Shown here one piece after another: positions 27,421-64,000 of a DNA stretch of 64,000 nt. Both the position numbers and the translations under genes were made by a program. The DNA is taken from positions 372,001 through 436,000 of the forward strand of contig JAGBEH010000007.1 in NCBI GenBank assembly GCA_017937125.1, written 5' to 3'. The stretch is from Alistipes sp. GTDB lineage: Bacteria > Bacteroidota > Bacteroidia > Bacteroidales > Rikenellaceae. Every line of letters starts with the position of its first letter. The first letter of the stretch is position 1. The notes beneath the pieces were generated by a model, which saw nothing but the letters and a program-made list of their open reading frames with translations, had not been told where the DNA came from and did no database searches.

Positions 27421-27849
27421 GTCTGTTTCGGATGAGCGATGAAAAACATCCGTTATGAATTTTTGATGATATTGTCATTTCACTTTTTTGTCGTGAAAAT
27501 TTGTTTTTTGATATTTTATTTGTACTTTCGTACATAATTTAATCGCCATATGGCGCGATTGGCCTACGATTACGAAACGAAACGATTCAATTAAAACGAC
27601 GATGATGGCAGATCTTTTATGCTGGTTATTTGAGGATTATTCGTTCCGAGCCCATAGAATTACGGGTCTCGTAGGCAAAAATCCCCCCCCCCTCGGATCT
27701 GAGGATTCGATAGCGTATAACATACTGTATATCAGATATTTACACGAGTATATAATGCCCGTTTGCGGCATTGTGTACTCGTGTTTTCGTATTGTACCCC
27801 GTTTCGGGGGTCGTATGTTCGTTCGAACAAACCTAAAACTTTCATATTT
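27421..27849 (+). other. Long intergenic/leader region with C10 tract
   Basis: Between the GH31 terminator and the first gene of locus 1. It contains the promoter, a 12-bp palindrome, a run of ten C (27683-27692) and a possible small ORF (separate entry). The GC content is visibly lower than in the neighbouring genes. No RNA gene was recognised. Confidence 0.7.
27500..27530 (+). promoter_or_regulatory. Promoter of SusCD locus 1
   Basis: TTTG at 27500-27503 (-33) is separated by 19 bases from TACTTTCG at 27523-27530, a one-mismatch TAnnTTTG -7 box. The leader to the first lipoprotein gene would be about 310 bases. A 12-bp perfect palindrome (CGCCATATGGCG) lies at 27544-27555, just after the expected start, and could be an operator or RNA hairpin. 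Confidence 0.6.
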
Positions 27850-27853
27850 ATGA
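27602..27853 (+). CDS. Possible 83-codon leader ORF containing a C10 tract
   Basis: An open frame starting at ATG 27602 (or 27605) after A-rich sequence. It reads through the C10 tract as KNPPPLG and ends at TGA 27851-27853, which overlaps the ATG (27850) of the lipoprotein gene as ATGA. The peptide has no signal, no recognisable domain and a mixed hydrophobic/basic composition. One extra or one missing C leads to a stop within about ten codons. It could be a chance ORF. The overlap with the next start and the homopolymer make a translationally coupled, slippage-controlled leader worth testing. Confidence 0.3.
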   Translation: MMADLLCWLFEDYSFRAHRITGLVGKNPPPLGSEDSIAYNILYIRYLHEYIMPVCGIVYSCFRIVPRFGGRMFVRTNLKLSYL

Positions 27854-30387
27854 TTCTGACTTTACCTAAATCATTGCGATTTTTCTCGTATGCCGCAGTC
27901 GTGCTGTCTACGGTTTTGTGTTGTGCGTGCAGCAAGGGCGGCGATGATCTTCCCGATCCGAATGATAAACCCGATCCGGATCCCGATGATAAATATGAGG
28001 ATATAAAGGTCGTAGACGGCAAGGTGCGCTTCTATTTGAGCGAAGCCGAAGATGCCGCCCGCAGAATTATGGGGATTCCCGCACATAAGTGGGATGCGGG
28101 CGATATAGTCGCGGTAAACGGCAAATCCTACGCTATCGAGACGGATGATAAGGGTAACAAATATGTCGAAGTGACGGCGTCGGGTTCGGGCTCTTATAAT
28201 GCCAACCTGACGGTCGCGGCTTCGAAAAAGTGGTACGGAGCTTCCGTTTACGCCGACCTGAAAATCCCGTACTCCCAATTCTGGTCGAAGACGGCGGCAT
28301 CGATGGACAGCTATCCGATGTTTGCGATGTACAGCAAGGAGACGGGCAACAAATTGGTGTTCAACGATTGCTTCGCCGTTTTGGATGTCGCGCTGACCGG
28401 CTCGGCCAAAATCGTTTCGGTAAAGGTGGAAAACCTTGCGGGGAAGGCTTTGGCGGGTTTTGCCAACTACAACTCCGCACGCGGTACGGTGAACATAACC
28501 AAAGGTTTGGATTTCGCCGTTCTGAACTGCACGGACGACGGTAAGTACGTGGCGTTGAAAAGTTCTGCGCCATCGCATTTCTGCCTGCCTATAGCGCCTG
28601 CGAATTATTCGGACGGGCTGCGCATTACCGTGTGCGATGCTGACCACCGTGCTATGGTTCATACGGTTCCTGCCGCGCAACTCGTAGCGGGCAAGCATTT
28701 TACCGTCGAACTGAAATATGCGCCCGACAGCGATCTCGTATTCTTCGAGTCGTTCGATAATTTCGTTTGGGGCGGAAATATTATGGGCGGCTCCTCTTCG
28801 ATAGGGTTTGCTCCGAACGATGCGAAGGTTGCGTGGGATACGGGCATCGACCGCGACGGGTATGCCGATTCGTATGCGGAGGTGTCCTGCGATGTTGCGG
28901 GTACGGGATTCCTGCAATCGAACGATTGGGCTAAGGATGTCAGCGGCAAAACCGTTGCCACCTCCCACGTCGTTACCGATTCTTACGTCACGAGCCGCAA
29001 TCTCGGCGACTGGACATATATGTTCCGCGTACAGGAGTATCAGGGCTGCGTGACCGTGGGCGGAGCTACGACGACGCGCGGCATTATGCAGACGGGCAAT
29101 CTGGCCAATATCGACGGTATGCGCCCCGTGAAGATCTCTTTCGACTATTGTCCCCAAAGCGGTGCTACGGACAATATGTTGTTCGAGGTGCTCAACGGAG
29201 GTTTCATCGAGACCGTGACGCTGAACGGCCGTCCCGTCGAACTGAACGACAATAATTCCGGATACAAAGCTAACGGCTCGCTGTATGTGGCTGACAGGAA
29301 TGCCGTCAGGATTCCGTCGAGCGACATTGCCGCCAAAGAGTGGAACAGAGTGGAGGTTACCGTCCGTAACGCGACCGACGGGACGATGCTGTATTGGGCG
29401 GGCAATGATGCGCTGACGGCAGGCAAACACGGTTTTTATGTGGATAATGTCGAAGTGCGCGTAATTGGTGAACCGTATGTGCGCCCCGCAAATACTCTCC
29501 GCGTGCTTTACTGGAACATCCAGAACGGTATGTGGTCGGACCAGCACAACAACTACGACAATTTCGTGAAGTGGGTGAAGAAATATAATCCCGATGTCTG
29601 CGTATGGTGCGAATCCGAAACGATCTACAAGGACCATACCGATGCGTCGCAGTCGGCTTCATTGAGATTCCTGCCCGCAGGATGGGGCTCGCTTGCAGCC
29701 CGTTACGGCCATTCGTACGCGGCTACGGGCGGAGACCGCGACAACTATTCGCAGACGATAACTTCCAGATATCCTATCGAAACCCTGCTTAAGATAACCG
29801 ATTCGGATGTGGCGGGCAAGCCCATTTCGCACGGCGCTGCCATTCAGCAGGTGAATGTCAATGGCAAACTCATCAATGTCGTGACCCTTCATATGTGGCC
29901 GCAGGCCTATGCATACGGCGTTACGGGCGAAGCGAACCGCAACGAAAGCGCGAGCAGGAAAGAGGGCGATTATTATCGCGAGTTCGAGATAAAGTACATT
30001 ATAAAGGAGACTATCAATAATTCCAAATATGCGGCACAGCAGGATTGGCTGATGATGGGCGACTTCAACTCCCGTTCGAGGCTCGACGAATGGTACTACA
30101 ATTACGGCGATCTGAACGATACGCGCTATCTGGTGCATAACCATATTCTCGACAATACGGATATGGTGGATATTATCGCCACCTATTATCCCGGATGCTT
30201 CATCACCTCTACGTACGGAACGGCGCGCATAGACTTTATGTACGCTTCGCCCTCGATGTACGGGACGATAGAGAATACCGTGACCGTGATGGACAAGTGG
30301 ACGACGGCCAAGCAGAGCCCGTATGTCTCCAATTTCTACGATCCGTCGGATCACCGTCCGATTTTAACCGACTTCAACCTGAAATAG
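27850..30387 (+). CDS. Fimbrillin-like/beta-sandwich/EEP nuclease-phosphatase fusion lipoprotein
   Basis: 845 residues. The lipoprotein signal (MILTLPKSLRFFSYAAVVLSTVLCCAC) is followed by an Asp/Pro linker (DPNDKPDPDPDD), a fimbrillin-like domain (about 45-290, with YPMFAMYSKETGNKLVF and the VLDVALTG strand pattern), a beta-sandwich (about 290-545, starting LVFFESFDNFVWGG) and a C-terminal EEP domain (547-845). EEP metal and catalytic residues are visible: WNIQNGMW, E588 in VCVWCES, D738-F-N740 in MMGDFNSRS, RIDFMY and D834-H835 in SDHRP. EEP enzymes cleave phosphodiesters or phosphomonoesters, as DNase I, sphingomyelinases and inositol phosphatases do. The usual Gln before the Glu is Cys. 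Surface location at the head of SusCD locus 1 is inferred. The ATG at 27850 is chosen because it begins the signal. Confidence 0.78.
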   Translation: MILTLPKSLRFFSYAAVVLSTVLCCACSKGGDDLPDPNDKPDPDPDDKYEDIKVVDGKVRFYLSEAEDAARRIMGIPAHKWDAGDIVAVNGKSYAIETDDKGNKYVEVTASGSGSYNANLTVAASKKWYGASVYADLKIPYSQFWSKTAASMDSYPMFAMYSKETGNKLVFNDCFAVLDVALTGSAKIVSVKVENLAGKALAGFANYNSARGTVNITKGLDFAVLNCTDDGKYVALKSSAPSHFCLPIAPANYSDGLRITVCDADHRAMVHTVPAAQLVAGKHFTVELKYAPDSDLVFFESFDNFVWGGNIMGGSSSIGFAPNDAKVAWDTGIDRDGYADSYAEVSCDVAGTGFLQSNDWAKDVSGKTVATSHVVTDSYVTSRNLGDWTYMFRVQEYQGCVTVGGATTTRGIMQTGNLANIDGMRPVKISFDYCPQSGATDNMLFEVLNGGFIETVTLNGRPVELNDNNSGYKANGSLYVADRNAVRIPSSDIAAKEWNRVEVTVRNATDGTMLYWAGNDALTAGKHGFYVDNVEVRVIGEPYVRPANTLRVLYWNIQNGMWSDQHNNYDNFVKWVKKYNPDVCVWCESETIYKDHTDASQSASLRFLPAGWGSLAARYGHSYAATGGDRDNYSQTITSRYPIETLLKITDSDVAGKPISHGAAIQQVNVNGKLINVVTLHMWPQAYAYGVTGEANRNESASRKEGDYYREFEIKYIIKETINNSKYAAQQDWLMMGDFNSRSRLDEWYYNYGDLNDTRYLVHNHILDNTDMVDIIATYYPGCFITSTYGTARIDFMYASPSMYGTIENTVTVMDKWTTAKQSPYVSNFYDPSDHRPILTDFNLK

Positions 30388-30391
30388 AATT

Positions 30392-31378
30392 ATGAAAAAC
30401 TTCAGATCCCTGATAGCTGTTGCGGCGTCGGCCGTAGCTCTCGTCGCATTGGCGCTGACACTCGAAAGTGCAAAACATCCGAAAGACACCCTGCGTCTGC
30501 TGTATTGGAATATCCAGAACGGCATGTGGGACGGTCAGGAGGATAACTACGACCGTTTCACGGATTGGGTGAAGGCACAGAATCCCGACGTATGCGTCTG
30601 GTGCGAGGCCAAATCCATATACAAGACGGGTACGGGTGAAAAAGCCGCTCCCGAAGATAATTATCTGCCCGATCATTGGGGCGAACTGGCAGCTCGTTAC
30701 GGCCATAAATATTGGTACAAAGGCGGCCAGCGCGACAATTATCCGCAGGTCATAACCTCGAAATATCCGATAGAGAACGTTGCGCGTATAATCGGAGAGA
30801 AGCCCGACAGCATTGTGTCGCACGGTGCCGGATGGGCCTATATCGAGAAAAACGGCCGCAGAATCAATATCGTAACGCTCCACACGTGGCCACAGGCCTA
30901 TGCGTTCAATGTCGCACGCGAACAGCGCGAGCAAAGCCGCAGGGAGCACGGCGGCGACCTCTATCGCCGTTTGGAGATAGAGTATATCTGCCGTCATACG
31001 ATTCTCACCGAACAGGATGCCGCGAACCAGATGTGGATGATGATGGGGGATTTCAATTCGCGGTCGGTGAAAGATAACTGGGTATACAAGTTTCCCGAGG
31101 ACGATACCCGTCTGTCAGTTAGCCGGTACGTGCTCGAGAATACTCCTTATATCGACATTATCGCCGAGCGCAACCCCAACAATTTTTACTCTTCGACCGG
31201 CGGTAAGTCGCGTATCGATTTCGTGTACTGCACCAAACCGCTCTATGACAGGATTACGGATGCCCGTATAGTCGATGATGCCTATACGAGACCTGTTCGC
31301 GATGCAAAGAAGATTTCGAATTTCTACCATCCGTCGGACCATCTGCCTATCATCGTGGATTTCGATTTGACCGAATAA
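30392..31378 (+). CDS. Secreted EEP family phosphodiesterase/phosphatase
   Basis: 328 residues, an EEP domain almost alone after an N-terminal export or anchor segment (about residues 6-27; no lipobox cysteine). It is closely similar to the EEP half of the preceding gene: LLYWNIQNGMWDGQEDNYDRF in sense, E72 in VCVWCEA, D220-F-N222 in MMGDFNSRS, RIDFVY and D316-H317 in SDHLP. It probably arose by duplication. It starts four bases after the previous stop. Nuclease, sphingomyelinase-like and sugar-phosphatase activities all remain possible. Confidence 0.8.
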   Translation: MKNFRSLIAVAASAVALVALALTLESAKHPKDTLRLLYWNIQNGMWDGQEDNYDRFTDWVKAQNPDVCVWCEAKSIYKTGTGEKAAPEDNYLPDHWGELAARYGHKYWYKGGQRDNYPQVITSKYPIENVARIIGEKPDSIVSHGAGWAYIEKNGRRINIVTLHTWPQAYAFNVAREQREQSRREHGGDLYRRLEIEYICRHTILTEQDAANQMWMMMGDFNSRSVKDNWVYKFPEDDTRLSVSRYVLENTPYIDIIAERNPNNFYSSTGGKSRIDFVYCTKPLYDRITDARIVDDAYTRPVRDAKKISNFYHPSDHLPIIVDFDLTE

Positions 31379-31417
31379 CACCAAATAACACCAACTAACC
31401 TTTTTATCAATTCAATT

Positions 31418-32572
31418 ATGAAAAAAACATTATTGATTAAGAGTTTCGTGCAATTCTCGCGAGGCTTGGTCTGCGTCGCCCTGACAGTGGCTGCCGCGAC
31501 TTCGGCCGTATCGTGCGAAGAGCACTCCAACTCCGAACGTAACGAGTCGATCGTGGTCTATGCGGACCTGGTCGAGCGAGAGCCTGTCGATGCCGTATGC
31601 GTCGATGCCAAGGGCGGTATCGCTCAGCTCTACGTAAAATCCAATGTCGATTTCACGGCGTCTTGGGAAGATGCCGATACTTCGCCTTGGATAACTGTTA
31701 CGGATTACTCCGCGAAAGATCCCGCAACGGGATATCGCGTGGTGACCCTGAAAGTCAAACCTCGTCACACAACGACGTGCTACTACACTCGCAGAACGGG
31801 TATGTTGATTCTTTCGGCCGTAAACGGCGGTTTGAACTACAACAAGTATGTGTCTGTGCATCAGGGTGCGACGGCGCGTGTCAGCTGGGATTTCGCGTCG
31901 CTGAAATACGGAAAGACCGATCCGCGCTTTACCGATGGCGAAACCTCTATCGATAATTGGACGGCGGCACAGAAAGCCTACGGTTTTACCTCTACGGTTA
32001 TCCCCGGCGAGACGGTGGCCCATTGCTATGGCAAGAACGGGTATCTCAAGCTCGGCGACGACAAGGGGCACGGAGCGGATCTCATTTCGCCGTTTACGTC
32101 CGACCTGCGTTACGATTCGCTGCTTATGGTCGCATTCCGTGCGGTTGCGTATACCGATCACGTCACGGGGAAGAAAGATGCCAACAAGATTACGGTAAGT
32201 GTGCTCGGCGGAGGTGTTATCGCCGATTTTGCCGAAGAAGGTAAGACTTCGATCGAACTGGAGGCCCCGTATTACGATGTGCAGAGCGATGAATTCCCCG
32301 ACAATATGTGGAAGAAAACCGATTTCCTGGTCTTCGTGAAAAGCACCAAAACCAATCCCATTACGGTAAATACGCAGGTGCGTATTACGTGCGGTTCGCT
32401 CTCGACGGCTTCGACAGAAAACAACCGCATATTTATCGATAACTTCTACATACGTCGTCTCACTGAAATCGACCAGCCTTATTTCGAGGAAAACGGCGGC
32501 AGCGGGAAAGACAATATTCTCGGCTCCGTCATTTACGACGATGCTGTCGATGATAATGTCGATGTGCAGTAG
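31418..32572 (+). CDS. BACON-type surface lipoprotein
   Basis: 384 residues with a lipoprotein signal ending TSAVSCEE (Cys at about 34). Residues ~45-150 resemble a BACON or Ig-like domain (FTASWEDADTSPWITVTDY, then a strand ending YNKYVSVHQGA). The C-terminal ~230 residues form a beta-sandwich-like region (YGKNGYLKLGDDKG; NRIFIDNFYIRRL) similar in style to carbohydrate-binding or choice-of-anchor domains. BACON domains bind glycans or mucin or act as spacers. It sits directly before SusC, like the 235-residue BACON lipoprotein near the start of locus 2. It probably helps bind or position substrate on the surface. No catalytic motif was seen. Confidence 0.65.
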   Translation: MKKTLLIKSFVQFSRGLVCVALTVAAATSAVSCEEHSNSERNESIVVYADLVEREPVDAVCVDAKGGIAQLYVKSNVDFTASWEDADTSPWITVTDYSAKDPATGYRVVTLKVKPRHTTTCYYTRRTGMLILSAVNGGLNYNKYVSVHQGATARVSWDFASLKYGKTDPRFTDGETSIDNWTAAQKAYGFTSTVIPGETVAHCYGKNGYLKLGDDKGHGADLISPFTSDLRYDSLLMVAFRAVAYTDHVTGKKDANKITVSVLGGGVIADFAEEGKTSIELEAPYYDVQSDEFPDNMWKKTDFLVFVKSTKTNPITVNTQVRITCGSLSTASTENNRIFIDNFYIRRLTEIDQPYFEENGGSGKDNILGSVIYDDAVDDNVDVQ

Positions 32573-32614
32573 GCGGATGTGTACAACAAGTTGTTTTACC
32601 TAAAAAGACTAATA

Positions 32615-35600
32615 ATGAATAAACTTTCTCACAAATTGAGCGCATCTGTCAAAGCGGTTCTGCCGATAGCGTTTTTAATGCTGCTTGCGACATTTGCGGT
32701 TCCGGTTGCGGCTCAGGCGCAAGAGCATCCCGTGACCGGTACGGTTCTCGATCCCGACGGCAACCCGCTGAACGGAGCTACGGTAGCGGTGCTTAAGACT
32801 GCCAAGGGAACCATTACTGACGCCAACGGTAAATTTACCGTAAGCGCAAAATCGACCGACGAACTCGAATTCTCATATTTAGGATATAAAACTCAGACGG
32901 TGGCTGTCGGGTCGCGTACCAATATCTCCGTTAAAATGGAGAACGATTCCTCGACCAGCATCGACGATGTCGTTGTCATCGGTTACGGTTCGGTGGCCAA
33001 GAAGGACCTTACTGGTTCGGTCGCCAGCGTCAAGATGAACGATATCAAGGATGTCCCCGTGACTTCGGTCGATAATGCGTTGCAGGGACGTATCGCAGGT
33101 GCCGACTTTATGTCTACGAGCGGTGAGCCCGGTTCTACGACTACCATTCGTATCCGCGGTACGCGTTCTATCAACGCATCCAACGAGCCTTTGATCGTAG
33201 TAGACGGTGTGATGGATGCCATTCACGACTTGAACGACATCAACTCGGACGATATTGCCGCGATTTCGGTCCTTAAGGATGCTTCTTCGACGGCGATCTA
33301 CGGTTCGCGAGGCGCCAACGGTGTAATCCTCATTACCACCAAGCAGGGTTTGGGTGTCAAGGACAAGGTGAACATCACGTTCAAAACCGACCTCGGCTTC
33401 TCGCAACTGCCGCGTCACCTCGACATTATGAATGCTTCCGAGTTCGCGCAGTATCGCAACGATCTGGCCTATTTCGGCAGCGATGCCAATCATCCCGACA
33501 TCGGTCCCGACACTCCTCTTTCGGGTGCCATTTATAAGGACCCGTTCGCTTTGGGCAAGGGTACCAACTGGATCGATGAGATTACCCGCACGGCGATGTA
33601 TCAGAACTATGCGCTTTCGCTTTCGGGCAACAGCGCGAAATCGTCGTACTACGCTTCGTTCTCGTACAACGAAACGGAAGGTATCATTCAGGACAGCGGC
33701 CAGAAGCGTTTTACGGGCCGTATCAACCTCGACCGTCAGTTGTTCAAGTGGCTGAAAGTAGGCTACAAGGGTTCGTATACTTGGCGTCATAACGACCAGA
33801 ACAAGGCCTCGATCGGCGGTACGGCTTGGTATTCGGCTGCACAGTATCTGTCTCCTATGATGAAGCCTAACGACAATTACAACCCGTTGGGAACTGCCGG
33901 CCAGACCATCAACACCCCGCGTGCCTTGATCGACCTGAATACCTATTATCTCGAGCGTCATTCTACGAATCACGCCTTTACGGTGAAAATCGAACCCATA
34001 AAGGATTTCGTCATCAACAGTACGTTCTCGTACTACCTCTATCAGCGCCATACTTATCGCTACTATCCCGGTACGCTTCCCAAGAAGACTCCGAGCGAAG
34101 GCGGTGAGGCTTACCGTGCGGAATGGGACGAACATTCGTTCTCGTCCGAGACCACTGTCGGCTACAAACTCAAGAAGAAGGACCACTCGTTCGATATTCT
34201 GGGCGGTTTCTCGGCATACGGTTTCGGCTCGCACAACTTCACGCTGGCCGGTTCGGGATATATGGACGATGCCGTTATGTGGAACAATATGAATGCCGTA
34301 TTGGACAAGGAAACATACAGCGCAGGTACATCTTACTCGCCGAAGACCAAGATGTCGGTATATGCCCGTGCCAACTATAACTACAAGTCGCGTTATTATC
34401 TGACGGTTACGGGACGTTACGACGGTGCGTCGAACTTTGCGGACAATTACAAGTGGGCATTCTTCCCCTCTGCTGCCGTAAAGTGGAATATCGCCAACGA
34501 AAGCTTTATGAAAGACGTCAAATGGATCGACGACCTTTCGATTCGTCTGAGTGCGGGTCTTACGGGTAATGATGCCATCTCGGTCTATCAGTCGCTTGCC
34601 GCTATGTCTTCGACTACGGGCGGTTACCTGTTCGACGAGTCGCAGCCCGTGGCGTTCTACCGCAGCCGTTTGGATTCGCCGGAACTTACTTGGGAGAAGA
34701 CCGCTGCGTACAATGCGGCTATCGACTGGTCTATGTTCAAGGGTCGCCTGAATATTACGGCCGAAGCATATATGTCGAAAACCACCGACCTTCTGATGTC
34801 GCTCTACGTTGCCCAGCAGACGGGTTATAACACCCGCCTCACCAACATCGGTTCGACTTCGAACAAGGGTATCGAGCTTTCTATCGAGAGCCGTAATATC
34901 GTGAAACCCAAGTTCCAGTGGTCTACGACCTTGACCTTGTCGCACAACAAACAGAAAGTCGAGGACATAGGTTCCGAGGAGTTCATCTCCGCATATAACT
35001 CGCCCGGTAACAACAGCTATATGATGTACGGTTACGTCAAGGGTTATCCGCTCAACTCGCTGTGGGGATTCAAGTACGGCGGTACGTGGAAGAATGCGGA
35101 CGAGCGTGCGGAAAACAATGTGACCAAAACGTATGCCACTACGACCAACACCGACGGTGCTCCGCGTTACTACGATATCAACCACGACGGCAAACTCGAC
35201 CGTCAGGACCTGATTTATCAGGGTAATGCCGACCCGTATCTCTACGGAGGTTTCCAGAATACGTTCCATCTCTACGGTTTCAAGCTGAGCATTTATTTCA
35301 ACTACTCGCTCGGCGGCAAGATCTACAACTTCTCGGAGTTCTATATGGCCGGTTCCATATTCTCGAACCAGTACAGATATATGGCCAATGCATGGCATCC
35401 CGTTCGAAATCCGAACTCGAATATCCCGCGTGCCGGCGGTAAGACCGATGCCGCGCTTCCGAGCGACTTTATGATCCACGATGCTTCGTATCTGCGCCTT
35501 AAGAACATTACGCTCGCATACACGTTCGACCTTCGCAAGAAGTGCTCGTGGTTGCGCGACATAACTTTGAGCGTATCGGGCGAGAACCTCTATCTGTGGA

Positions 35601-35725: not shown

Positions 35726-35739
35726 CTTTTATAATTACA

Positions 35740-37263: not shown

Positions 37264-37283
37264 TAATTCGAAACAGTCAGATT

Positions 37284-39878: not shown

Positions 39879-39895
39879 AACATATCGGTTCGGTT

Positions 39896-39922
39896 TGCGC
39901 AACGGGTGCTGCCCGTTGCGCA
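39896..39922 (+). other. Intercistronic hairpin without T-run
   Basis: An 11-bp perfect stem (39896-39906 with 39912-39922) with a 5-nt loop between two DUF5689 genes. No T-run follows, so it is more likely a processing, stability or attenuation element than a terminator. Confidence 0.6.
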
Positions 39923-39969
39923 GGCGGGACGGTAAAATAAAGAGTATTAACACATAATAACAGATTGAT

Positions 39970-42447: not shown

Positions 42448-42455
42448 GTAGGATG

Positions 42456-42479: not shown

Positions 42480-42482
42480 GGT

Positions 42483-42518: not shown

Positions 42519-42556
42519 CGAATTAAGGTCGTCCGATTTTCCGCAAGATCGTATCG

Positions 42557-43462: not shown

Positions 43463-43468
43463 GAAGAT

Positions 43469-45139: not shown

Positions 45140-45163
45140 GGTGAGGCGATATTGCCGAGTGTG

Positions 45164-45195
45164 AACCGCGTGCTTTCTGAAAGCGCGCGGTTTTT
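45164..45195 (+). terminator. Intrinsic terminator of SusCD locus 1
   Basis: A 13-bp stem with one G-T pair (45164-45176 with 45180-45192), a 3-nt loop and a TTTTT run. It begins 25 bases after the last stop of locus 1, separating the two loci transcriptionally. Confidence 0.85.
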
Positions 45196-57100: not shown

Positions 57101-57299
57101 CGATTTGCGCAAGTATACGAAGGTAATCCGCGACATTACCGTCAGCGCCAGCGGCGAGAACCTTTATTTGTGGAAGAATTACAACGGTTTCGACCCCGAC
57201 GTATCCACCAACAGCAGCGGATCGACGATTCGTCGTATGGATAACGGCGCGTATCCCAAACCGCGTACGATTATTTTCAGTGTCCAAATTCGCTACTAA
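54183..57299 (+). CDS. susC: SusC/RagA family TonB-dependent outer-membrane transporter (locus 2)
   Basis: 1038 residues. A signal ending APVAFAQ is followed by a carboxypeptidase-D-like domain (VKGNVKDASGQPMVGATVF) and the plug (EEVVAVGYATMAKTDLTGSI; ALQGRIAGADIMSTTGEPG; IRIRGTRSITASNEPLIVVDD; VLKDASSTAIYGARGSNGVIIVTT). The barrel ends PKPRTIIFSVQIRY. It is closely similar to the SusC at 32615 over its whole length, including the plug and final strands, so the two loci share a common origin. It imports the ligand with the SusD encoded 9 bases downstream. ATG 54183 or 54192 may be the start. Confidence 0.95.
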   Translation: MKDMIKYTAVSGRLRSALGMLAVVIAVLMQAPVAFAQSEIITVKGNVKDASGQPMVGATVFVVNGQAGTTTDVNGNYTIKVAANGTLEYQFLGYASQQIKVNNRTNINVKLEQDNIAIEEVVAVGYATMAKTDLTGSITNVKMSDVKDAPVMSIDQALQGRIAGADIMSTTGEPGAATSIRIRGTRSITASNEPLIVVDDVIDAVSDLSDINPADVQSISVLKDASSTAIYGARGSNGVIIVTTNKGREGKPSITFKADVGFSQLPRGLDIMNATEFAQYRNDVYYFLNNYGEKPEEDYRYIDPAAMGKGTDWVKAITRTGMYQNYNLSVSGGDKKSKYFASFGYHNNDGIVINSGVQRYTGRLNVDRQLFKWLKLGANTSYEYRDNNNNKTAIGGTGWYNAAIYLNPMLDKRAVINDLWGTGFDGGQPFDSPYIRGNIVTNTTTRKMLNISPYVEIKPWRYLTIKSRFSYYSFQRHSYQFSPKSLPTYQASQRGGTAYRAETDETKLTNENTISFKKMFNKIHYVEAMVGFTAETFKQHNLTANGTGYLDDNVKWNNMNAIPDKRNLTVTTSLNERTRMSGIMRLYYNCKRRYYFTFTARYDGSSTFAKNNKWGFFPSGAFKWMISKERFMVNADWLDELALRLSAGLSGNDAISYYRSLAALGNTTGGFLFGSDQPVAFYPSRLASDNLTWEKTAMYNAAVDFAILNRRLEFTLEAYYARTTDLLLSVQLASHTGFTSRYANLGKTENKGVEFSITSRNIVKPKFSWTTTFTISHNKQKVLDIGTDEYVAAYSSPTNNSYMMYGYVKGYPLNALWGFKHAGVWHNDDEIARNNHTKAYVSTSASTYRQGYSRYVDVNHDGVLNSDDLVYLGSADPIVHGGLQNTFNIGKLKIGIYFNYSVGGKIYNLTELWMGNGSPSTNQYRYMLNAWHPVRNPNSNIPRAYSDDQIASDRMLHDASFIRLKNVSIGYTFDLRKYTKVIRDITVSASGENLYLWKNYNGFDPDVSTNSSGSTIRRMDNGAYPKPRTIIFSVQIRY

Positions 57300-57308: not shown

Positions 57309-58994
57309 ATGATGATTATGAAAAATAATATATTGAATATTTTCGGCAGACTGTGGGTCGTTGCCGCAGGTGCGGCGATCGTCACCTCCTGCAGTCTCGA
57401 GGAGGATATGAAATCGAACTATGCGCCCGACAATTTCTATCGCGACGCCGCCGAGTGCGAGGCCGGCTTAAACGGGTGCTACATACCTCAGCGTTCGATC
57501 TTCAACGGTACGTATATGCTCGTTACCGAGGCCCCGTCGGACATTATGTACATCAACTCGGGTACGTATGACGCGATTCTCGATATTTCTCCCGCCAATC
57601 CGCGTTTCGGAAATACGATGTGGAACAACGGCTATCTCGGCGTTATGCGCAGCAACTGTATTATCGCCGCTATAGACCGTGTAAACCTCCCCGATAGCGA
57701 AAAGGTGCCTTTGTACACCGAGGGACTGATTCTCCGCGCATTCTATTATTGGGTGCTGACTTGCAATTTCGGCGACGTCCCGTTCTATACCGACGAGATT
57801 ATGACTACCGCCGACCAGCTCCGCATAGCCAAACTGCCGCGTATGTCGGCAGTGGATACCCGCCGCTATTGTTTCGAGGAGCTCGAAAAGTGGCTGCCCA
57901 ATGAATATAACGTCCAGCAGCGTACGTTCGAAGACGGAACAGAGTACCGTATGGGCGTAGCCGTGGGGTATATGGTGGCTGCCAAACTGGCGATGTGGAA
58001 TGCCAGCGCCGAGAGACTGAATCCCGATGCGCAGACCTTCAAAAAGGAACATCCCTATCACAAGCCTTATGAAGGTGCCGAGTACTGGTGGCGCAAGGCT
58101 CTCGATATGCTCGACCATCTGGAGGCGATTTACGGCGATTTGCAGCAGTACCCCGTTTCGGACATACCTTTCAGCCGCAAATTCACTCCCGAATCGATCT
58201 GGGAAAACTCGAATATATACGACGAGCAGGGGCTGGCCGTTACGACGAACGTGGCCTGCTTCTATACTCCTACGCGTAAGAGTTCCGAAGGAACCGATGC
58301 GGGTTTCGGCCGCGATGCTATTTACGACGGCATAGAGATTCCGAATTTGGGTGCCTATGCCCGTACCTATACGGCATTCCGTCCGAACACTTATTTCTAC
58401 CAGCAGTTGCAGCCGTTCACGAACCGTAACGACAAACGTCAGTTTATCAATATGGCGTGGGGTTGGGACACCGCAGCGGATACGGCAGATCCCGACAGTC
58501 CGGGATTCAAGTTCTTCAACGGTCCCAAAAGCGAAACGGGACGTCCGTGGATGGGACGCAAATTCTGGTGTCCCGGTATGCGCAACACTTCCGACGGCAA
58601 TAACCATAAGATATTCCGTTATGCCGGGGCTGTGTTGATGCAGGCCGAATGCTGGCTGATGCTCGGCGACAAGAACAAATCCGCCGATTACCTTAACAAG
58701 GTCAGGGCGCGTGCCGGTTTGGGTCCCGTTTCTCCTTCGAATTATCGCAATACGGCCGCTTTTATGACGGAGATACAGAAAGAGTGCGGCCGCGAGCTTA
58801 TCGGCGAATTCCAGCGCAAGCACGATCTGGTACGTTGGGGTATATTCTATCAGAGCGTACTCGACAACAACAATCTGCAAAAGGTTCGCGACAATATTCT
58901 GCCGTGTCACGAGTATTATCCGATTCCCGACCGACAGGTGTCGTATTCGGGCGGTGCTCTCGACAATAAGGCTTATGCCGAATATGGTATGTAA
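57309..58994 (+). CDS. susD: SusD/RagB family surface lipoprotein (locus 2)
   Basis: 561 residues. A lipoprotein signal ending AAIVTSC (Cys near 28) leads into a SusD helical fold with LILRAFYYWVLTCNFGDVPFYTDE in sense, FWCPGMRNTSDGNNHKIFRYAGAVLMQAE and the C-terminal QKECGRELIGEFQRKHDLVRWG pattern, ending YYPIPDRQVSYSGG and DNKAYAEYGM. It is about 54 residues longer than the SusD of locus 1, with extra sequence between the motifs, so the ligand pocket may differ. Starts at 57309 and 57318 are both possible. Confidence 0.94.
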   Translation: MMIMKNNILNIFGRLWVVAAGAAIVTSCSLEEDMKSNYAPDNFYRDAAECEAGLNGCYIPQRSIFNGTYMLVTEAPSDIMYINSGTYDAILDISPANPRFGNTMWNNGYLGVMRSNCIIAAIDRVNLPDSEKVPLYTEGLILRAFYYWVLTCNFGDVPFYTDEIMTTADQLRIAKLPRMSAVDTRRYCFEELEKWLPNEYNVQQRTFEDGTEYRMGVAVGYMVAAKLAMWNASAERLNPDAQTFKKEHPYHKPYEGAEYWWRKALDMLDHLEAIYGDLQQYPVSDIPFSRKFTPESIWENSNIYDEQGLAVTTNVACFYTPTRKSSEGTDAGFGRDAIYDGIEIPNLGAYARTYTAFRPNTYFYQQLQPFTNRNDKRQFINMAWGWDTAADTADPDSPGFKFFNGPKSETGRPWMGRKFWCPGMRNTSDGNNHKIFRYAGAVLMQAECWLMLGDKNKSADYLNKVRARAGLGPVSPSNYRNTAAFMTEIQKECGRELIGEFQRKHDLVRWGIFYQSVLDNNNLQKVRDNILPCHEYYPIPDRQVSYSGGALDNKAYAEYGM

Positions 58995-59014: not shown

Positions 59015-61180
59015 ATGAAACAGATAACATATAAAATAATGGAGAAATTCAGCCGTGCGGCAATGGCTTTGATGCTGGTATCCGCATCGCTGCTGGCTTC
59101 CTGTGAAGACAAGGCGTTCGAGCCGTCTTTGAGCCTGAGTGTAAACAACAAGATTATCAGGCTGGAAAACAAGGCGAGCGAGACTCCCATATCCATCTAT
59201 TCCACCGGCGACTGGAACGTACGTCTCGTTCCCGAAGTCGATTGGGCTTCGCTCGACAGAACGAGCGGTAGCGGCTCGCAGCAGGTATGGCTGACATATC
59301 AGTCGAACCCGCAGTCCGTGCGTCGTGTCACTCTGGTGGTTACGAAAGGCGGCGAGAGGCGTGAAATCCTCATCGAGCAGACGGGAGATGCCGTCGCATT
59401 CCGTTTCAAGCTCGACGGCCGCGAAATGACCTTCGAGAAATCGAAATCCACCTGCTACCTTACTTTTGCCACGAACATCCCGAAAGATCAGTTCGAAACG
59501 GTTACCGTGCGCGATATGCAGTATGTCGATGGTACTGACGGGTGGTTGTCCAATATCCGGATAGAAAATCGGGTTCTGGCATTCGACGTTACCGAAAACG
59601 ATACGGGCGCTCCGCGTTCGGCCACTATTACGGCAGTGTATATCGACAAGTACGATAACGACGCCGAATACGAAACGACGGCCAAAGTGACGCAGACGAC
59701 CACTTCGTCCGTAGGCATCACTGTCGATGAGCTGATTTCCCAATACGTACAGGCCGAGGCTGCGGGTCTGGTCGATGAAGACGGCAACTGGACGATCACT
59801 ACCGATCAGGAATCGGGCATCAAGGTCGTGGGCTATGCCATAAGCGACAGCGAGGGTCAGAATACCGCGACCAACAGGGAGAACAAATGGCAGGGCTCGG
59901 GCTATCCTTCGATGTCCAACGAGGTGAACGGTCAGACGGCATATATCCAGAATGCCGACGGCAGCAAGGGTATCCGACTGCTGATGAGCGGCGCTTCGGA
60001 CAATATCGTAACCCGTCTTTCCGAGGTGAACGTACGTGTGGACGGCCTTACGATGATGCGCGAGGAGAATCCTGCCCGATATACCATCAAGAACATTCCG
60101 GTGTACAACGTGGTCGGGCTTTCCGAGGCTTCGGCTTCGAATATTCCCGTCAAGGAGAAGTATATCGGCGAATTGACGGATGAGGATGTCTATACGTATG
60201 TTACGTTGAAGGATGTCGAGTTCACATACAAGCAAAGTTCGTTCTTCTGTACGAATAACGGTTATGCGGGTATGTGCGACATTTATCCCGTGAATGTCCG
60301 TGACATTAACGGCGACAAGTTGTATATGTACGTGAATCACGCTTGTACGTGGGCGCGTAACGGAGAGGTCATACCTCAGGGCTCGGGCAAGTTGAGCGGC
60401 GTCATTACCCACGAAGTGTCGGACCGCTTCGGCATAGACGGTTATATGGGACGATACAGCATCCGTCCTTACGACAAGACCGACTTGCAGGTTTCGGCCG
60501 ATCCCGATTCACGATATGCTACTATCGTTGAATGGAACTGGGATAACCTGGCGATGGACAAGACGGCGGACAATCGTATCCGTCCGATAGTCGGCAGCGG
60601 CTATCTGTATCACGACAGGCACGACGCGTTCGCTCCCGAACTCAAGAACAATTTCAACGAGCTGGTAGCCGACGCGACGATGAAGGGCGCAAAGGCCAAT
60701 GCCGCCTGCCGCTTTACGACCGAATGGGTGGATGCTTCGAAAAATATGTACGGAGTGAACGCCGAGTTCTCGACTGCGGGCATTACGGGACGCAATATGG
60801 CAGTTACCTTCTCGGGATATGCCGGAGACCAGAGTGCGAACGGTTCGGGTATCGTAGTCCCGTCGTACTGGCTGATTAAGTACTCTTTTGACGGGGAGAC
60901 CTATACGGATGTTCCCGACAGCCGTTTCGTCCTGCATCCGTTCGTATGCTGGCACGAGAGATGTCCCTATTTCGCAACATACGGCCTGCACGAATATTCG
61001 GTCAATCTGCCTGCGGAACTGTTCGGTCGTGACAAGGTCCTGCTCCGATTCGTCCCTGAGGACAACAGATGTACGACTTCCATCAATGTCGCAACCCCCG
61101 ATCCTGCGGGCGGGACATTGTCGTCGAGCACCAAATTGAGCGTAACATTCTCGGATGTGACGGTTAAGTATAACAAGTAA
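59015..61180 (+). CDS. BACON + DUF5689 surface lipoprotein (locus 2, first copy)
   Basis: 721 residues. The lipoprotein signal ends SASLLASCED (Cys near 30). A BACON domain (YSTGDWNVRLVPEVDWASLDRTSG) and a second Ig-like repeat precede DUF5689 at about 236-495 (VVGYAISDSEG; TAYIQNADGSKGIRLL; LSEVNVRVDGLTMMREENPARYTIKNI in sense), the OB-fold-like pattern with the conserved YIxxxDGxxGIRL segment. A C-terminal beta-sandwich of about 220 residues ends DVTVKYNK. It is the counterpart of the protein at 37284 but shorter. Start ATG is 59015; MEKFSRAAM at 59039 is possible. Confidence 0.75.
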   Translation: MKQITYKIMEKFSRAAMALMLVSASLLASCEDKAFEPSLSLSVNNKIIRLENKASETPISIYSTGDWNVRLVPEVDWASLDRTSGSGSQQVWLTYQSNPQSVRRVTLVVTKGGERREILIEQTGDAVAFRFKLDGREMTFEKSKSTCYLTFATNIPKDQFETVTVRDMQYVDGTDGWLSNIRIENRVLAFDVTENDTGAPRSATITAVYIDKYDNDAEYETTAKVTQTTTSSVGITVDELISQYVQAEAAGLVDEDGNWTITTDQESGIKVVGYAISDSEGQNTATNRENKWQGSGYPSMSNEVNGQTAYIQNADGSKGIRLLMSGASDNIVTRLSEVNVRVDGLTMMREENPARYTIKNIPVYNVVGLSEASASNIPVKEKYIGELTDEDVYTYVTLKDVEFTYKQSSFFCTNNGYAGMCDIYPVNVRDINGDKLYMYVNHACTWARNGEVIPQGSGKLSGVITHEVSDRFGIDGYMGRYSIRPYDKTDLQVSADPDSRYATIVEWNWDNLAMDKTADNRIRPIVGSGYLYHDRHDAFAPELKNNFNELVADATMKGAKANAACRFTTEWVDASKNMYGVNAEFSTAGITGRNMAVTFSGYAGDQSANGSGIVVPSYWLIKYSFDGETYTDVPDSRFVLHPFVCWHERCPYFATYGLHEYSVNLPAELFGRDKVLLRFVPEDNRCTTSINVATPDPAGGTLSSSTKLSVTFSDVTVKYNK

Positions 61181-61194: not shown

Positions 61195-63504
61195 ATGAAA
61201 TCATATAATTTGAAAACGGCGACGAAAAGGCTTCTGTTTATGGCGGGAGTCTCCCTGACATCGCTTTTCGTAACCTCGTGTGTCGTAGACGAGGACGATC
61301 ACGTATCGGACGTGGACCTCGGTGCGGCCGTACCCAATAAGGTGCTGACGTTGAAAGCCGAAGCCGGTACGGCGGATATAGAGGTATATTCGAACAAGAC
61401 ATATAAAGTGCGTTTGATTTCGGGCGAAGAGTGGGTGTCGCTGAAAAAGACGCCCTCGTCCGAGGCATCCGAAGAACTGATACTCGACGGCAACGGTAAG
61501 TTCACTATCGATTACGACCGTAATGCGCGTTTCCGCCGTATGGCTAAAATCGTGTTGGCTGCCGAAACGCGCCGCGACACCATCAGCATCCGTCAGGAGG
61601 GTGTTTTGTCCTCCGATATCAGTATTCCCGACTCGCGAATGTTCGTCGAGAAGACGGGCGGCAAAATGCGTACGAGATTCATCTCGAAAGTGGATTTCGC
61701 GGATGTCGCCATAGATGTGGAATATACGGATCTGAATGAGGTCGATTGGATTGCCGATTTCGAGCGCAACAATAACTACGTCGATTTTACGGTAGGCGAG
61801 AATCTCGGCAACAACATCTCCCGTAAGGCGCTCGTCACCTTCTCGTACAAGGACGGCTGGGGCGAAACGGTAAGCGATGTGCTGACTATTACCCAAAGCG
61901 GCCCCGACAGCGAGAACAGCGAAATCATCTCTTTCGAGGAGTTGCGTCAGTTGGAGGGGCTGGTCGATGAGAATATCGCTATCGAAGGCTATATAGTCAG
62001 CGATATTACTTACGGCAATGCGTCCGACAACCCGCATACGTCGAAAGTTACGATTGACTATACGCATACCAATCTGTGCGCTTATCTCGAAAGCCTCGAC
62101 GGAAGGTATGGCGTCCGTCTCGAGTTCAATACCGAGGACGACTATGTATTCAGCCGCTACGACAAGGTGCGATTGAATCTGCAAGGAACTACCGTGGTGA
62201 AAGAGGGCAGCTCCAATCCGAGCGATATGAATCCCGTACGTTACGCCATCAGCGACCTTACGTCCGAGAACGTGGCTACGATCGAGGGCGGCAGTATGTC
62301 GTGGCTGCCCGTCAAGGAGAAGCATTTCGGCGATCTTACGGATGACGATATGTATACGTATGTTACGCTGAAAGATTGCGAGTTCCCCGTACGTAAGGGT
62401 CCGCTTACCCCTATAAACGAAGGTTATGCTAAGGAGTATGCAGTGAACCGCATAAGCAAGTATCCGCTTCTTGTGCGCGACATAAACGGCAACTCGTTCT
62501 ATACGTTTACCAACATCACCTGTACGTATCGCCGTACGGGCGACCGGCTGCCGCAAGGCTCGGGCGACCTGTCGGGCGTCATCGTATTCGAATACTACGA
62601 CCGTTTCACGTGGGATGTGAATAAGTGCGATGAATACAGGGCTATGGGTTATGACGAGGACCAGATCTTCGATCTGGGCAATATAGGCCGTTACCAGATA
62701 CGCCATCAGTCGGCCGACGATATCAATATAGCCGACAATTTCAACGAGGGCTTCTCCGACATCGTATGCGAATTCAACTATTACAACCAGACACGTACGG
62801 ATGTGGAGAAGACCGTAAGCGAAGTGGGTGTTATGTCCGCATCGTATGGCGCGGGAACCCTGACGCATTCGAGCGCAACCTCCACTGCTACCGGAATATT
62901 GCCCACTCAGGAGTACAGCTACCTCGGTCCTGTCGGGAAGTCGAATCCGGGCAATGTAAACGGTACGGGTGTCGTCGATCGCAACGGCAATCGTGTCAGC
63001 GTTTCGCCGAATACGAACAACCAGACGAGCAATGCCGGAAAAGGATGGGTGGAATCTTCGGACGGTATGGCCTGGTATCACAATAAGTGGGTGAACGGTT
63101 CGTCGTTCCATTATTGGCTGATGTCGTTCTCGACATCGAAGGTAAGTGCCGGACGCCACCTCTCGTTGCAGATAAGCTGCTTGAACAAGAACCAGGGCAA
63201 GGCTCCGCGTTACTGGAACGTGGAGTGGTCTACCGACCGCACTAACTGGACGTTTATCGATTCGTATACTTGCCCCGATGTCGTTTTGTACGATTATACG
63301 ACTTATCACCAGTCGGCGGCATATAAGTATATAAATGTGGATCTGCCTGACGAAATGGCCAACCGCAGTGTCGTCTATATCCGCCTGATTCCGTCGAACG
63401 AACGTGCCGGAAATCCGAATTCGCCTTACTCGTACGATGACGGCGAGGTGGTGGACGGAGGTTACAACTCGCTTAACTATCTGGCCGTGCGCTATAACAA
63501 GTAA
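61195..63504 (+). CDS. BACON + DUF5689 surface lipoprotein (locus 2, second copy)
   Basis: 769 residues. The signal ends SLFVTSCVVDE (Cys near 29). A BACON-like domain (about 40-135) and a second Ig-like repeat precede DUF5689 at about 245-509 (NIAIEGYIVSDITYG; CAYLESLDGRYGVRLEF; YDKVRLNLQGTTVVKEG). The long C-terminal beta-sandwich contains YSYLGPVGKSNPGN and WLMSFSTSKVSAGRHLSLQISCL in sense and ends LAVRYNK. It aligns end to end with the protein at 39970, showing that each locus carries one short and one long DUF5689 protein. A hairpin follows at 63511. Confidence 0.75.
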   Translation: MKSYNLKTATKRLLFMAGVSLTSLFVTSCVVDEDDHVSDVDLGAAVPNKVLTLKAEAGTADIEVYSNKTYKVRLISGEEWVSLKKTPSSEASEELILDGNGKFTIDYDRNARFRRMAKIVLAAETRRDTISIRQEGVLSSDISIPDSRMFVEKTGGKMRTRFISKVDFADVAIDVEYTDLNEVDWIADFERNNNYVDFTVGENLGNNISRKALVTFSYKDGWGETVSDVLTITQSGPDSENSEIISFEELRQLEGLVDENIAIEGYIVSDITYGNASDNPHTSKVTIDYTHTNLCAYLESLDGRYGVRLEFNTEDDYVFSRYDKVRLNLQGTTVVKEGSSNPSDMNPVRYAISDLTSENVATIEGGSMSWLPVKEKHFGDLTDDDMYTYVTLKDCEFPVRKGPLTPINEGYAKEYAVNRISKYPLLVRDINGNSFYTFTNITCTYRRTGDRLPQGSGDLSGVIVFEYYDRFTWDVNKCDEYRAMGYDEDQIFDLGNIGRYQIRHQSADDINIADNFNEGFSDIVCEFNYYNQTRTDVEKTVSEVGVMSASYGAGTLTHSSATSTATGILPTQEYSYLGPVGKSNPGNVNGTGVVDRNGNRVSVSPNTNNQTSNAGKGWVESSDGMAWYHNKWVNGSSFHYWLMSFSTSKVSAGRHLSLQISCLNKNQGKAPRYWNVEWSTDRTNWTFIDSYTCPDVVLYDYTTYHQSAAYKYINVDLPDEMANRSVVYIRLIPSNERAGNPNSPYSYDDGEVVDGGYNSLNYLAVRYNK

Positions 63505-63510
63505 TTTACG

Positions 63511-63549
63511 GCGGTAGCCGTGAACCTTGCTGAAGTTTGCGGCTGCCGC
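63511..63549 (+). other. Intercistronic hairpin without T-run
   Basis: A 10-bp stem with one G-T pair (63511-63520 with 63540-63549) and a 19-nt loop, right after the long DUF5689 gene. It occupies the same relative position as the hairpin at 42483-42518 in locus 1. Confidence 0.5.
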
Positions 63550-63579
63550 GTATTTCGATACGAAAAAAATGATGAACCG

Positions 63580-64000
63580 ATGAAGAAAATTGTGTTGTGT
63601 GCAATCGCGTCGATTGCCGTATCTTTTGCCTCTGTCGATGCGCAGGTGGTCAAGTCATACGAAAAACCTGCGGAGGCGGAGTTCCGTTCTGCCGTGAAGA
63701 CATTGATGTACAAGACCAATGGCCACGACTTTACGCCCGAGCGCATTGCCGCTATGGATGTGGTGCAGCGAATGATGAATAATTTTACCACTACCGAGTG
63801 GAACTCGTATTGGGGCACGTGGGATTGGTATGAAGTAGATAATATGGAGCGTTTCGGCGTGCCTTACTATCTGCGGCAGTCGTTCGAGAAGATAAAGAAA
63901 GAAATCAAGAGCACGAAGGTCGAGAAGGGTTCGGTTGCGATATGGCACCTTTATAATATGGGGTACATAATCAAGACCCCGTCGCAGGTCCTCGGTATAG
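63580..64000 (+). CDS. Secreted protein, probably MBL-fold hydrolase (3' end outside window)
   Basis: 140 residues are visible before the window ends. MKKIVLCAIASIAVSFASVDAQ is a signal peptide. An alpha-helical stretch follows, and then VAIWHLYNMGYIIKTPSQVLGI, which looks like the first strands of a metallo-beta-lactamase-fold hydrolase in which the pattern leads into a metal-binding HxHxDH further on. That motif is not in the window, so the assignment is tentative. The position after the DUF5689 genes matches that of the EEP and calcineurin-like enzymes in locus 1, so a hydrolase would fit the context. Confidence 0.5.
   Translation, partial: MKKIVLCAIASIAVSFASVDAQVVKSYEKPAEAEFRSAVKTLMYKTNGHDFTPERIAAMDVVQRMMNNFTTTEWNSYWGTWDWYEVDNMERFGVPYYLRQSFEKIKKEIKSTKVEKGSVAIWHLYNMGYIIKTPSQVLGI

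Follow-up and report, generated by a model that had tools for sequence, protein, structure and literature searches.

Twin SusCD operons with phosphoesterase-family enzymes in Alistipes sp. and their candidate substrates

A SusCD system is generally taken to be a glycan importer. Two neighbouring operons in a 64-kb stretch of Alistipes sp. DNA (64,000 nucleotides in all; hereafter, the window) raise the question of what such a system takes up when its operon encodes phosphoesterase-family proteins and no recognisable glycanase. A preliminary description of the window had proposed twin adjacent SusCD loci with phosphodiesterase- and phosphatase-family enzymes, and this arrangement was confirmed by Pfam analysis of gene content.

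Gene content and layout of the two loci

Both loci are SusCD operons on the + strand. Locus 1 spans 27850-45139, and locus 2 spans 45460-64587, ending just outside the 64-kb window. In each, the gene for a SusC-type TonB-dependent transporter adjoins that for SusD by Pfam. The recognisable enzymes of the two loci together are four EEP-fold proteins, one MetallophosN/C protein, and one MBL-fold hydrolase; Pfam bore out the earlier counts of three EEPs in locus 1 and one in locus 2, as well as the calcineurin-like phosphoesterase and the possible MBL hydrolase. No GH, PL, CE, or sulfatase was found by Pfam inside either operon. The earlier claim that these families are absent therefore holds inside both operons, but it overlooked the genes that immediately flank the pair, GH31 on the upstream side and GH3 on the downstream side.

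Locus 1 (all genes +) begins with EEP1 (27850..30387), a lipoprotein in which an unassigned N-terminal region of ~550 residues precedes a C-terminal EEP domain (PF03372 at 553-801). EEP2 (30392..31378), recognised by Pfam and 50% identical to the EEP1 domain, has a signal-peptide-like N-terminus and no lipobox. BAC1 (31418..32572), a BACON-like lipoprotein with a lipobox, lies immediately 5' of the TonB-dependent transporter SusC1 (32579..35725 by Pfam, with an alternative ATG at 32615), which is followed by SusD1 (35740..37263; Pfam). The remaining genes encode D1a (37284..39878), a BACON + DUF5689 lipoprotein by Pfam and lipobox; D1b (39970..42447), a DUF5689 protein by Pfam that by eye is likely lipidated and was missed by the lipobox pattern; EEP3 (42557..43462), an EEP homologous to mannosyl-6-phosphatase; and MPE (43469..45139), a MetallophosN-Metallophos-MetallophosC protein by Pfam with motifs DxH, GD, GNHD, H, and GHNH.

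Locus 2 (all genes +) opens with FIM1 (45460..49005), a fimbrillin-like lipoprotein by Pfam (Mfa_like_1) and lipobox, and FIM2 (49030..52401), whose kinship to FIM1 was traced via orthologues in L003. Only half of the earlier assignment of two fimbrillin-like giants stood at the domain level, because FIM2 has no Mfa_like_1 match of its own, though it is related to FIM1. These are followed by BAC2 (52434..53138), a BACON lipoprotein; EEP4 (53162..54154), an EEP lipoprotein by Pfam and lipobox with complete catalytic residues by alignment; SusC2 (54183..57299; Pfam); SusD2 (57309..58994; Pfam); the DUF5689 proteins D2a (59015..61180) and D2b (61195..63504), both by Pfam; and an MBL-fold hydrolase (Lactamase_B_3; 63520 or 63580..64587, L001:1521-2588) with an HSHGD motif, the last 587 bases of which lie past the window.

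Each locus had also been credited with a BACON lipoprotein and a pair of BACON + DUF5689 proteins. At the Pfam cut-off of 25 bits, the BACON lipoprotein stands in locus 2 (BAC2, 28.2 bits) and falls short in locus 1 (BAC1, 18.1 bits). DUF5689 is above its Pfam cut-off in all four D proteins, and BACON only in D1a, with sub-threshold scores for D1b (14.0) and D2a (23.2) and none listed for D2b.

One terminator-like hairpin (27383..27413, +), a 14-pair stem with a T run after it, stands between GH31 and locus 1, and another (45163..45193, +) lies 3' of locus 1. The gap between the two loci is 320 bases, compared to 4 to 109 bases for the remaining gaps with the start codons as chosen. The second hairpin and this wide gap suggest that the loci are two separate transcription units. 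A sigma-70 scan of 27300-45600 gave no clear excess (26, compared to a mean of 19.8, sd 5.8), and the window contains no tRNA and no Rfam match at the gathering threshold. The flanking GH31 gene (24724..27354, +) is accompanied by a gene for a DUF6377 putative regulator (22932..24566, +; Pfam), and a second DUF6377 gene similarly sits beyond GH3 (L001:2760-4844, -), which is directly downstream of locus 2. DUF6377-like matches also occur immediately upstream of EEP1 in L019 and L022.

Conservation of the SusCD-phosphoesterase link

EEP- and/or MetallophosN-type genes were present in 23 of 25 neighbourhoods chosen through SusD, where genes were identified through their likeness to proteins of the window and in part also by Pfam. 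The two exceptions are L140, which has a sulfatase, and L142/L158, which has AP_endonuc_2 proteins and GH30. In a control over three genomes, whose entries include paralogues as well as orthologues and hence are not independent, an EEP or MetallophosN match was within 10 kb of 9/12 SusD genes of this subfamily, compared to 23/118 other SusD genes (Fisher p = 1.6e-4); the other 3/12 subfamily genes had no such match within that distance. Subfamily membership was set at E 1e-60 for two genomes and at E 1e-120 for the remaining one, and two sub-cut-off MetallophosN entries were dropped. Similar results were obtained for EEP alone (7/12 compared to 14/118, p = 5e-4) and after removal of the window's own two loci (7/10 compared to 23/118, p = 1.5e-3). 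The neighbourhood and control counts together argue against chance, and we conclude that the phosphoesterase link of this SusCD type is conserved. Locus 1 is also present in Alistipes montrealensis. A set of 80 EEP-derived loci was rejected as proof of linkage, since these loci had been found via EEP, and the SusD-based neighbourhoods were used instead.

Among the matches listed, no description of this gene set appears in the open-licence literature. The loci resemble SusCD PULs in their SusC/SusD pair, extra surface lipoproteins, operon layout, and surface-then-periplasm logic; in contrast, no GH, lyase, or carbohydrate esterase was recognised in the operons, and EEP, MetallophosN/C, and MBL-fold proteins are found instead. 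The excerpted account of Flavobacterium PUSI and PUSII describes a PusCD pair beside phosphodiesterases or a phosphomonoesterase rather than CAZymes (PMC8115612). By family membership, putative phosphomono- and phosphodiesterase genes adjoin SusCD here too, and the same excerpt assigns the PUSI enzyme Fjoh_4172 to pf00149 (PMC8115612), to which the MPE core also belongs. Unlike PusCD, the present loci have EEP and DUF5689/BACON proteins and gut Alistipes-type hosts, and the two are likened by gene content, not orthology. We conclude that these loci are a variant on the PUL/PusCD theme and that their EEPs include an uncharacterised clade. In a gut lineage, a conserved core operon whose sole recognisable enzyme belongs to a phosphoesterase family would carry the phosphate-related PusCD idea beyond Flavobacterium to gut bacteria of the Alistipes type, and these loci supply a defined set of candidate enzymes and SusD proteins.

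Catalytic residues and nearest relatives of the EEPs

The window's EEPs match PF03372 above cut-off and have the full catalytic set (N, E, H, D-N, D, and D-H). All eight catalytic positions of EEP1 are kept in 32/32 aligned homologues, the window included, and the set is complete in 22 of 24 aligned EEP1/2/4-type EEPs. The two incomplete EEPs belong to loci of the window's own genome: L097 also carries GH5 and SASA, and L099 carries SASA together with a BNR_2 match that falls narrowly short of the cut-off. The EEP of L148, the orthologue of that in L097, likewise lacks the full set. The first two sit where the window's loci have an intact EEP, in paralogous loci marked by acetylesterase, GH5, or BNR-like genes. 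EEP1, EEP2, EEP3, and MPE are under purifying selection, with dN/dS of 0.07 to 0.17, although most dS values were close to 1 or higher. For EEP3 one value was not computable, and two EEP2 comparisons were excluded because they match the EEP1 domain rather than an EEP2 orthologue.

The closest relative of EEP3 with a named activity, among the PDB matches listed, is a mannosyl-6-phosphatase, a sugar phosphomonoesterase (4c1r, E 1.3e-31; compare 1.1e-41 to 3g6s). The alignment to 4c1r spans residues 44-227, and FWLSETP, GWDA, and HxDHxG are common to both. The 4c1r enzyme belongs to a B. theta mannan PUL. The likeness to it is confined to EEP3, the operon here has no mannosidase, and at this E value the substrate of 4c1r cannot be transferred to EEP3. 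In B. theta, an EEP gene lies between GH92 and GH125 genes, according to an excerpt of PMC10434189. By contrast, for EEP1, EEP2, and EEP4, with motifs WNIQNGMW and LHxWPQ, sequence comparison gives no close relative of known structure: EEP4 has no PDB sequence match at E 0.01, and EEP2 has no mannosyl-6-phosphatase-type PDB match at E 1. Their weak similarities are to nucleases, in that EEP2 and EEP4 give sub-cut-off hits to exonuclease III models and the EEP1 profile weakly matches LINE-1 endonuclease in the PDB.

Candidate substrates

The preliminary description had proposed that a phosphoester polymer is captured, cut at the surface, and imported. The conserved phosphoesterase link, intact catalytic residues, and purifying selection speak for uptake of a phosphoester; a polymer such as nucleic acid was not supported as the substrate, given the sugar phosphomonoesterase relative of EEP3, the genes of relatives, and the GH31/GH3 bracket. 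Within the same SusD subfamily, GH20, GH2, GH36, GH30, BNR, SASA, or sulfatase genes lie beside or replace phosphoesterases, and BNR-EEP fusions occur in relatives. In three genomes the loci lie between GH31 and GH3; two relatives have just one of the two loci in this slot, either locus 1 or locus 2. Because of these genes, the bracket, and the resemblance of EEP3 to mannosyl-6-phosphatase, we tentatively favour the reading that both operons take up a phosphate-ester molecule, most likely a phosphate-decorated glycan or glycoconjugate, at a probability of roughly 0.45.

The lipobox and signal patterns would fit a first cut at the surface and a later one in the periplasm. The BACON, DUF5689, fimbrillin-like, and SusD lipoproteins would capture the substrate at the surface, where lipidated EEP1 and the MetallophosN enzyme (locus 1) or EEP4 (locus 2) would cut or trim the phosphoester outside the cell. 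The fragment would then be imported through SusC, and non-lipidated EEP2 and EEP3, the latter probably periplasmic, would complete dephosphorylation in the periplasm, perhaps together with the MBL-fold hydrolase. We infer location, step order, enzyme activities, and substrate class alike in this model.

Several observations run against this reading. Support for the glycan comes from relatives, flanks, and one of the four EEPs, and none from other genes inside the operons; GH31 is set apart by its own hairpin; and the weak nuclease similarity of EEP1/2/4, the broad substrate range of the EEP fold, and the 2/25 and 3/12 exceptions also count on this side.

The nuclease similarities, all weak, speak for scavenging of nucleic acids or nucleotides. 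EEP1 and EEP4 would then be surface nucleases and SusCD would import oligonucleotides, from which phosphate and nucleosides would be freed in the periplasm by EEP2, EEP3, and other phosphatases. An S1/P1 nuclease gene close to the end of a related locus in A. montrealensis (L152), between AP_endonuc_2 and DUF5689 proteins, is consistent with this, as is an excerpted report of Bacteroidota as DNA degraders (PMC8289736). A Riemerella DUF5689 protein is grouped with proteins essential for natural transformation, and an outer-membrane protein gene adjoins its gene, as here; however, the excerpt describes a competence gene pair and mentions no SusD or phosphoesterase partner (PMC8459023). A PDB profile search with DUF5689 gave nothing convincing (best E 0.29). 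The ExoIII-type similarity is generic and under curated cut-offs, and Pfam recognised no nucleoside or nucleobase gene in either operon. Because EEP3 is of the sugar-phosphatase type and relatives carry GH, BNR, SASA, and sulfatase genes, nucleic acid was demoted from the leading reading to an unlikely rival.

EEP-fold proteins act on a wide range of substrates, and neutral sphingomyelinases and inositol phosphatases belong to this fold. Foraging on phospholipids, sphingolipids, or inositol phosphates is therefore conceivable, with the EEPs acting like phospholipase C, sphingomyelinase, or inositol phosphatase and SusCD importing the head group. For EEP2 relatives located away from these loci, 69 of the 135 candidate neighbours from 37 loci were scanned, with short or doubtful frames excluded, and 4 of the 69 matched a type I phosphodiesterase, one of them placed in L062. 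The pooled Pfam scan of these neighbours pointed to no clear substrate among the best 25 of 95 families. The GH30, GH20, GH2, GH36, and BNR genes of relatives would also suit glycosphingolipids, but the identical set suits mucin-type glycans, and PDB sequence searches gave no sphingomyelinase or inositol phosphatase match. We consider a lipid substrate improbable.

The GH31/GH3 bracket could also mean that the loci are PULs of the ordinary kind, serving a neutral or sialylated glycan, with EEPs that are mainly accessory or binding proteins and with GH31, GH3, and others elsewhere as the true glycanases. Paralogous loci do retain a constrained EEP-fold lipoprotein that is catalytically incomplete (L097 compared to L148: dN 0.33, dS 2.43, with dS near saturation). 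However, catalytic residues are complete in the two loci of the window, and other examined stretches with locus-1 orthologues have no GH31 match, although some stop short of the far upstream region. Moreover, the extra enzyme genes next to the closest orthologues are of phosphoesterase types, and a PHP-domain gene follows MPE in L129, with a similar frame in L131. We consider an ordinary PUL quite unlikely.

A broader and somewhat doubtful possibility is a SusCD lineage that imports no plain glycan. EEP1, EEP2, and EEP4 would form an unassigned diesterase clade that works on either side of the outer membrane, its target being a phosphodiester-linked polymer or a lipid head group. The EEP slot of sister operons would have decayed to a catalytically dead, constrained binding protein, with other esterases and BNR-like proteins taking over, so that one chassis would have switched ester chemistries. 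Intact and dead EEP copies at one operon position offer a natural contrast through which the part played by catalysis could be tested directly.

Two adjacent SusCD operons and their relatives

The window (G000:C6:372001-436000 of a 2.16-Mb genome) contains locus 1 (27850-45139), in the order EEP1, EEP2, a BACON-like protein (BAC1), SusC, SusD, two DUF5689 proteins (D1a, D1b), EEP3, and a MetallophosN/C protein (MPE), and locus 2 (45460-64587), in the order two fimbrillin-like proteins (FIM1, FIM2), a BACON protein (BAC2), EEP4, SusC, SusD, two DUF5689 proteins (D2a, D2b), and an MBL-fold hydrolase. With the chosen start codons, intergenic gaps are 4 to 109 bases, save for 320 bases between the two loci, and positions 27383-27413 and 45163-45193 each carry a terminator-like hairpin. 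These gene orders bear out the preliminary description of two adjacent SusCD loci with EEP proteins. Its claim that GH, PL, CE, and sulfatase genes are absent holds inside both operons, where none was recognised; GH31 and GH3 occur only as flanks, with a DUF6377 gene and GH31 on the left and GH3 (minus strand) and DUF6377 on the right. The leader immediately ahead of EEP1 contains a further hairpin of 18 pairs (27742-27784), which also scored as terminator-like; it had no match in Rfam and may serve locus 1 as an attenuator or RNA element.

Both cassettes occupy the slot between DUF6377-GH31 and GH3 in the window genome. The same slot holds locus 1 alone in an uncultured Alistipes MAG (G010, L018/L085), and locus 2 alone, followed by the MBL gene, in Rikenellaceae MAG SIG169 (G001, L003/L156/L157). 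No GH31 match (E 1e-30) was found in the remaining stretches with locus-1 or locus-2 orthologues, some of which end short of the far upstream region; the cassette therefore does not always include GH31, although the two may still be functionally tied in this lineage. G423, labelled as the same genus, shares its SusD places with G004, the genome that contains L008; from this we infer that the window genome belongs to the genus-level group of Alistipes montrealensis.

An EEP-profile scan returned 403 related stretches, and gene orders were counted in the best 80. The order EEP1, BAC1, SusC1, SusD1, D1a, D1b was found in 21 of these 80 (D1b being cut by the stretch end) and the order BAC2, EEP4, SusC2, SusD2, D2a, D2b in 5; the source records are named Alistipes, Cryptobacteroides, Rikenellaceae, and unnamed Bacteroidales or Bacteroidia. 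Because the stretches were found through EEP, linkage is supported by the remaining gene order and not by the presence of EEP itself. L083, L084, L085, L129, and L131 also have the D1b-EEP3-MPE tail, and locus-2 orthologues L145, L146, and L150 end 3' with an MBL-type and an EEP2-type gene.

Several other arrangements were observed. In some rumen-type relatives, a convergent second EEP1-like protein of 1055-1097 aa lies downstream of locus 1 (L088:5054-8221, L092:9253-12420, L093:8863-12156), accompanied by fimbrillin-like genes; Pfam confirmed its EEP domain in L088 only. At L102:6469-12890 (G000:C4, about 419-426 kb), three EEP genes stand in tandem (frames of 516-806 aa, 38-43% to EEP2/EEP4), with no SusC- or SusD-like match in the surrounding 19-kb stretch. 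Immediately 5' of EEP2 relatives in L046, L052, L055, and L060 are a SusC-like frame and another of 511-514 aa, and DUF5689 relatives are absent beside them. The 511-514 aa frames are probably the four SusD matches of a pooled Pfam scan, and with them as putative SusD these sets would represent another type of SusCD that goes with this EEP clade.

Linkage of phosphoesterase-type genes to the SusD subfamily

A SusD1 search (E 1e-120) gave matches in 2/393 genomes of an order-wide sample and 16/268 of a family-wide sample, own genome included in each. All places from both searches made up 25 SusD neighbourhoods: 19 new stretches and six earlier ones (the window; L095/L096; L016+L083; L008+L084; L018+L085; L007). 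EEP- and/or MetallophosN-type genes lie close by in 23 of the 25, as called by similarity to the window's proteins (E 1e-4), with a Pfam scan for only a part. The exceptions are L140, where a sulfatase lies downstream and the SusC region spans two reading frames, and L142/L158, where a GH30 accompanies two AP_endonuc_2 proteins. Glycan enzymes also occur among the 23, namely GH36 (L133), GH20 and GH2 (L135), and GH20 (L147); L138 has frames resembling the L135 GH20/GH2 by similarity. BNR-EEP fusions were found in L141 and L144 (Pfam scan) and in L143 and L096 (by similarity). These fusions with a sialidase-like BNR domain (L141:17329-19431 and L144:744-2828, and by similarity those of L143 and L096) close SusCD operons that open with MetallophosN-type genes, and L129 has a PHP-domain gene 3' of MPE.

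In three genomes, EEP or MetallophosN lies within 10 kb of 9/12 SusD genes of the subfamily, compared to 23/118 other SusD genes (p = 1.6e-4); with the window's two loci removed, 7/10 of the subfamily retain it (p = 1.5e-3). The three misses are L097, which has a dead EEP, and L100 and L151, which have AP_endonuc_2 proteins. EEP-SusD adjacency is not unique to the subfamily, since an EEP match lies as close as about 2 kb to five of the 23 positive SusD genes outside it.

The general idea of SusCD with phosphoesterases is not new, because in the PusCD loci of Flavobacterium phosphodiesterases or a phosphatase accompany SusCD, and depletion of phosphate induces these loci (PMC8115612). The shared feature is SusCD beside phosphoesterase-type genes, and the gene set of the window comprises the EEP clade, DUF5689 pair, BACON, and MetallophosN. 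No description of this set was found in the literature searched.

Retention and loss of the EEP active site

All eight catalytic positions are invariant in 32/32 EEP1 homologues of full length (740 to 900 residues), and the full catalytic set is present in 22/24 rows of an EEP1/2/4-type alignment, a few of which are the same gene twice. The two failures are EEP-fold proteins immediately 5' of SusC in own-genome loci with locus-2 order, L097:3218-4078 (G000:C4, about 35.2 kb) and L099:5730-6620. Their His, GDFN motif, and SDH motif are altered, and their EEP Pfam matches fall below cut-off (19.1 and 22.7 versus 24.5 bits). Accessory genes are DUF5107/TPR, GH5, and SASA at L097, and SASA and a BNR_2 match just under cut-off at L099. 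The L097 orthologue in G010 (L148:14425-15288) has identical losses, with dN 0.33 versus dS 2.43 (dS near saturation); therefore, this EEP-fold lipoprotein has been retained between two species without activity. These dead lipoproteins of L097, L099, and L148 are possibly enzyme-derived binding proteins, a hint that the EEP fold can serve for binding too. We read the active site kept in the window loci and lost in L097/L148 as evidence that enzymatic function matters in the window.

Predicted location and candidate substrate

A lipobox pattern matched EEP1, EEP4, BAC1, BAC2, D1a, D2a, D2b, FIM1, FIM2, and SusD2. In SusD1, D1b, and MPE, which the pattern missed, a Cys after a hydrophobic stretch is apparent by eye. 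EEP2 had no match, and the match at an early Cys of EEP3 was read by eye as part of a putative type I signal peptide. EEP1, EEP4, and MPE would thus be at the surface and EEP2 and EEP3 periplasmic. The EEP1 domain shares 50% identity with EEP2, suggesting that one chemistry operates on either side of the membrane.

EEP3 matches PDB 3g6s, which has no named activity (E 1.1e-41), and 4c1r, a mannosyl-6-phosphatase (E 1.3e-31). With moderate confidence, our best single guess for the substrate is a phosphate-decorated glycan or glycoconjugate. Nucleic acid and phospholipid or inositol phosphate are possible alternatives. EEP1, EEP2, and EEP4 have no strong solved relative in PDB sequence searches (EEP4 none at E 0.01); EEP2 and EEP4 match ExoIII models below cut-off, and the EEP1 profile matches LINE-1 endonuclease at E 3e-5. 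In A. montrealensis, a related locus (L151/L152) carries an S1/P1 nuclease gene near its end (E 1.1e-27) and a protein weakly similar to the EEP1 N-terminal region, with an AP_endonuc_2 TIM barrel in place of EEP. Such proteins also occur in the window genome's C9 locus and in L158. C-terminal AP_endonuc_2/xylose-isomerase-like barrels are found at L100:3462-6146, L151:17043-19583, L158:6321-8819, and L158:1845-4469; the first three, which were compared, have weak N-terminal similarity to EEP1 (24-26%), as though one catalytic head had been swapped for another. The mix of EEP and AP_endonuc_2 heads, together with the S1/P1 nuclease, speaks for a chassis able to carry various enzyme heads.
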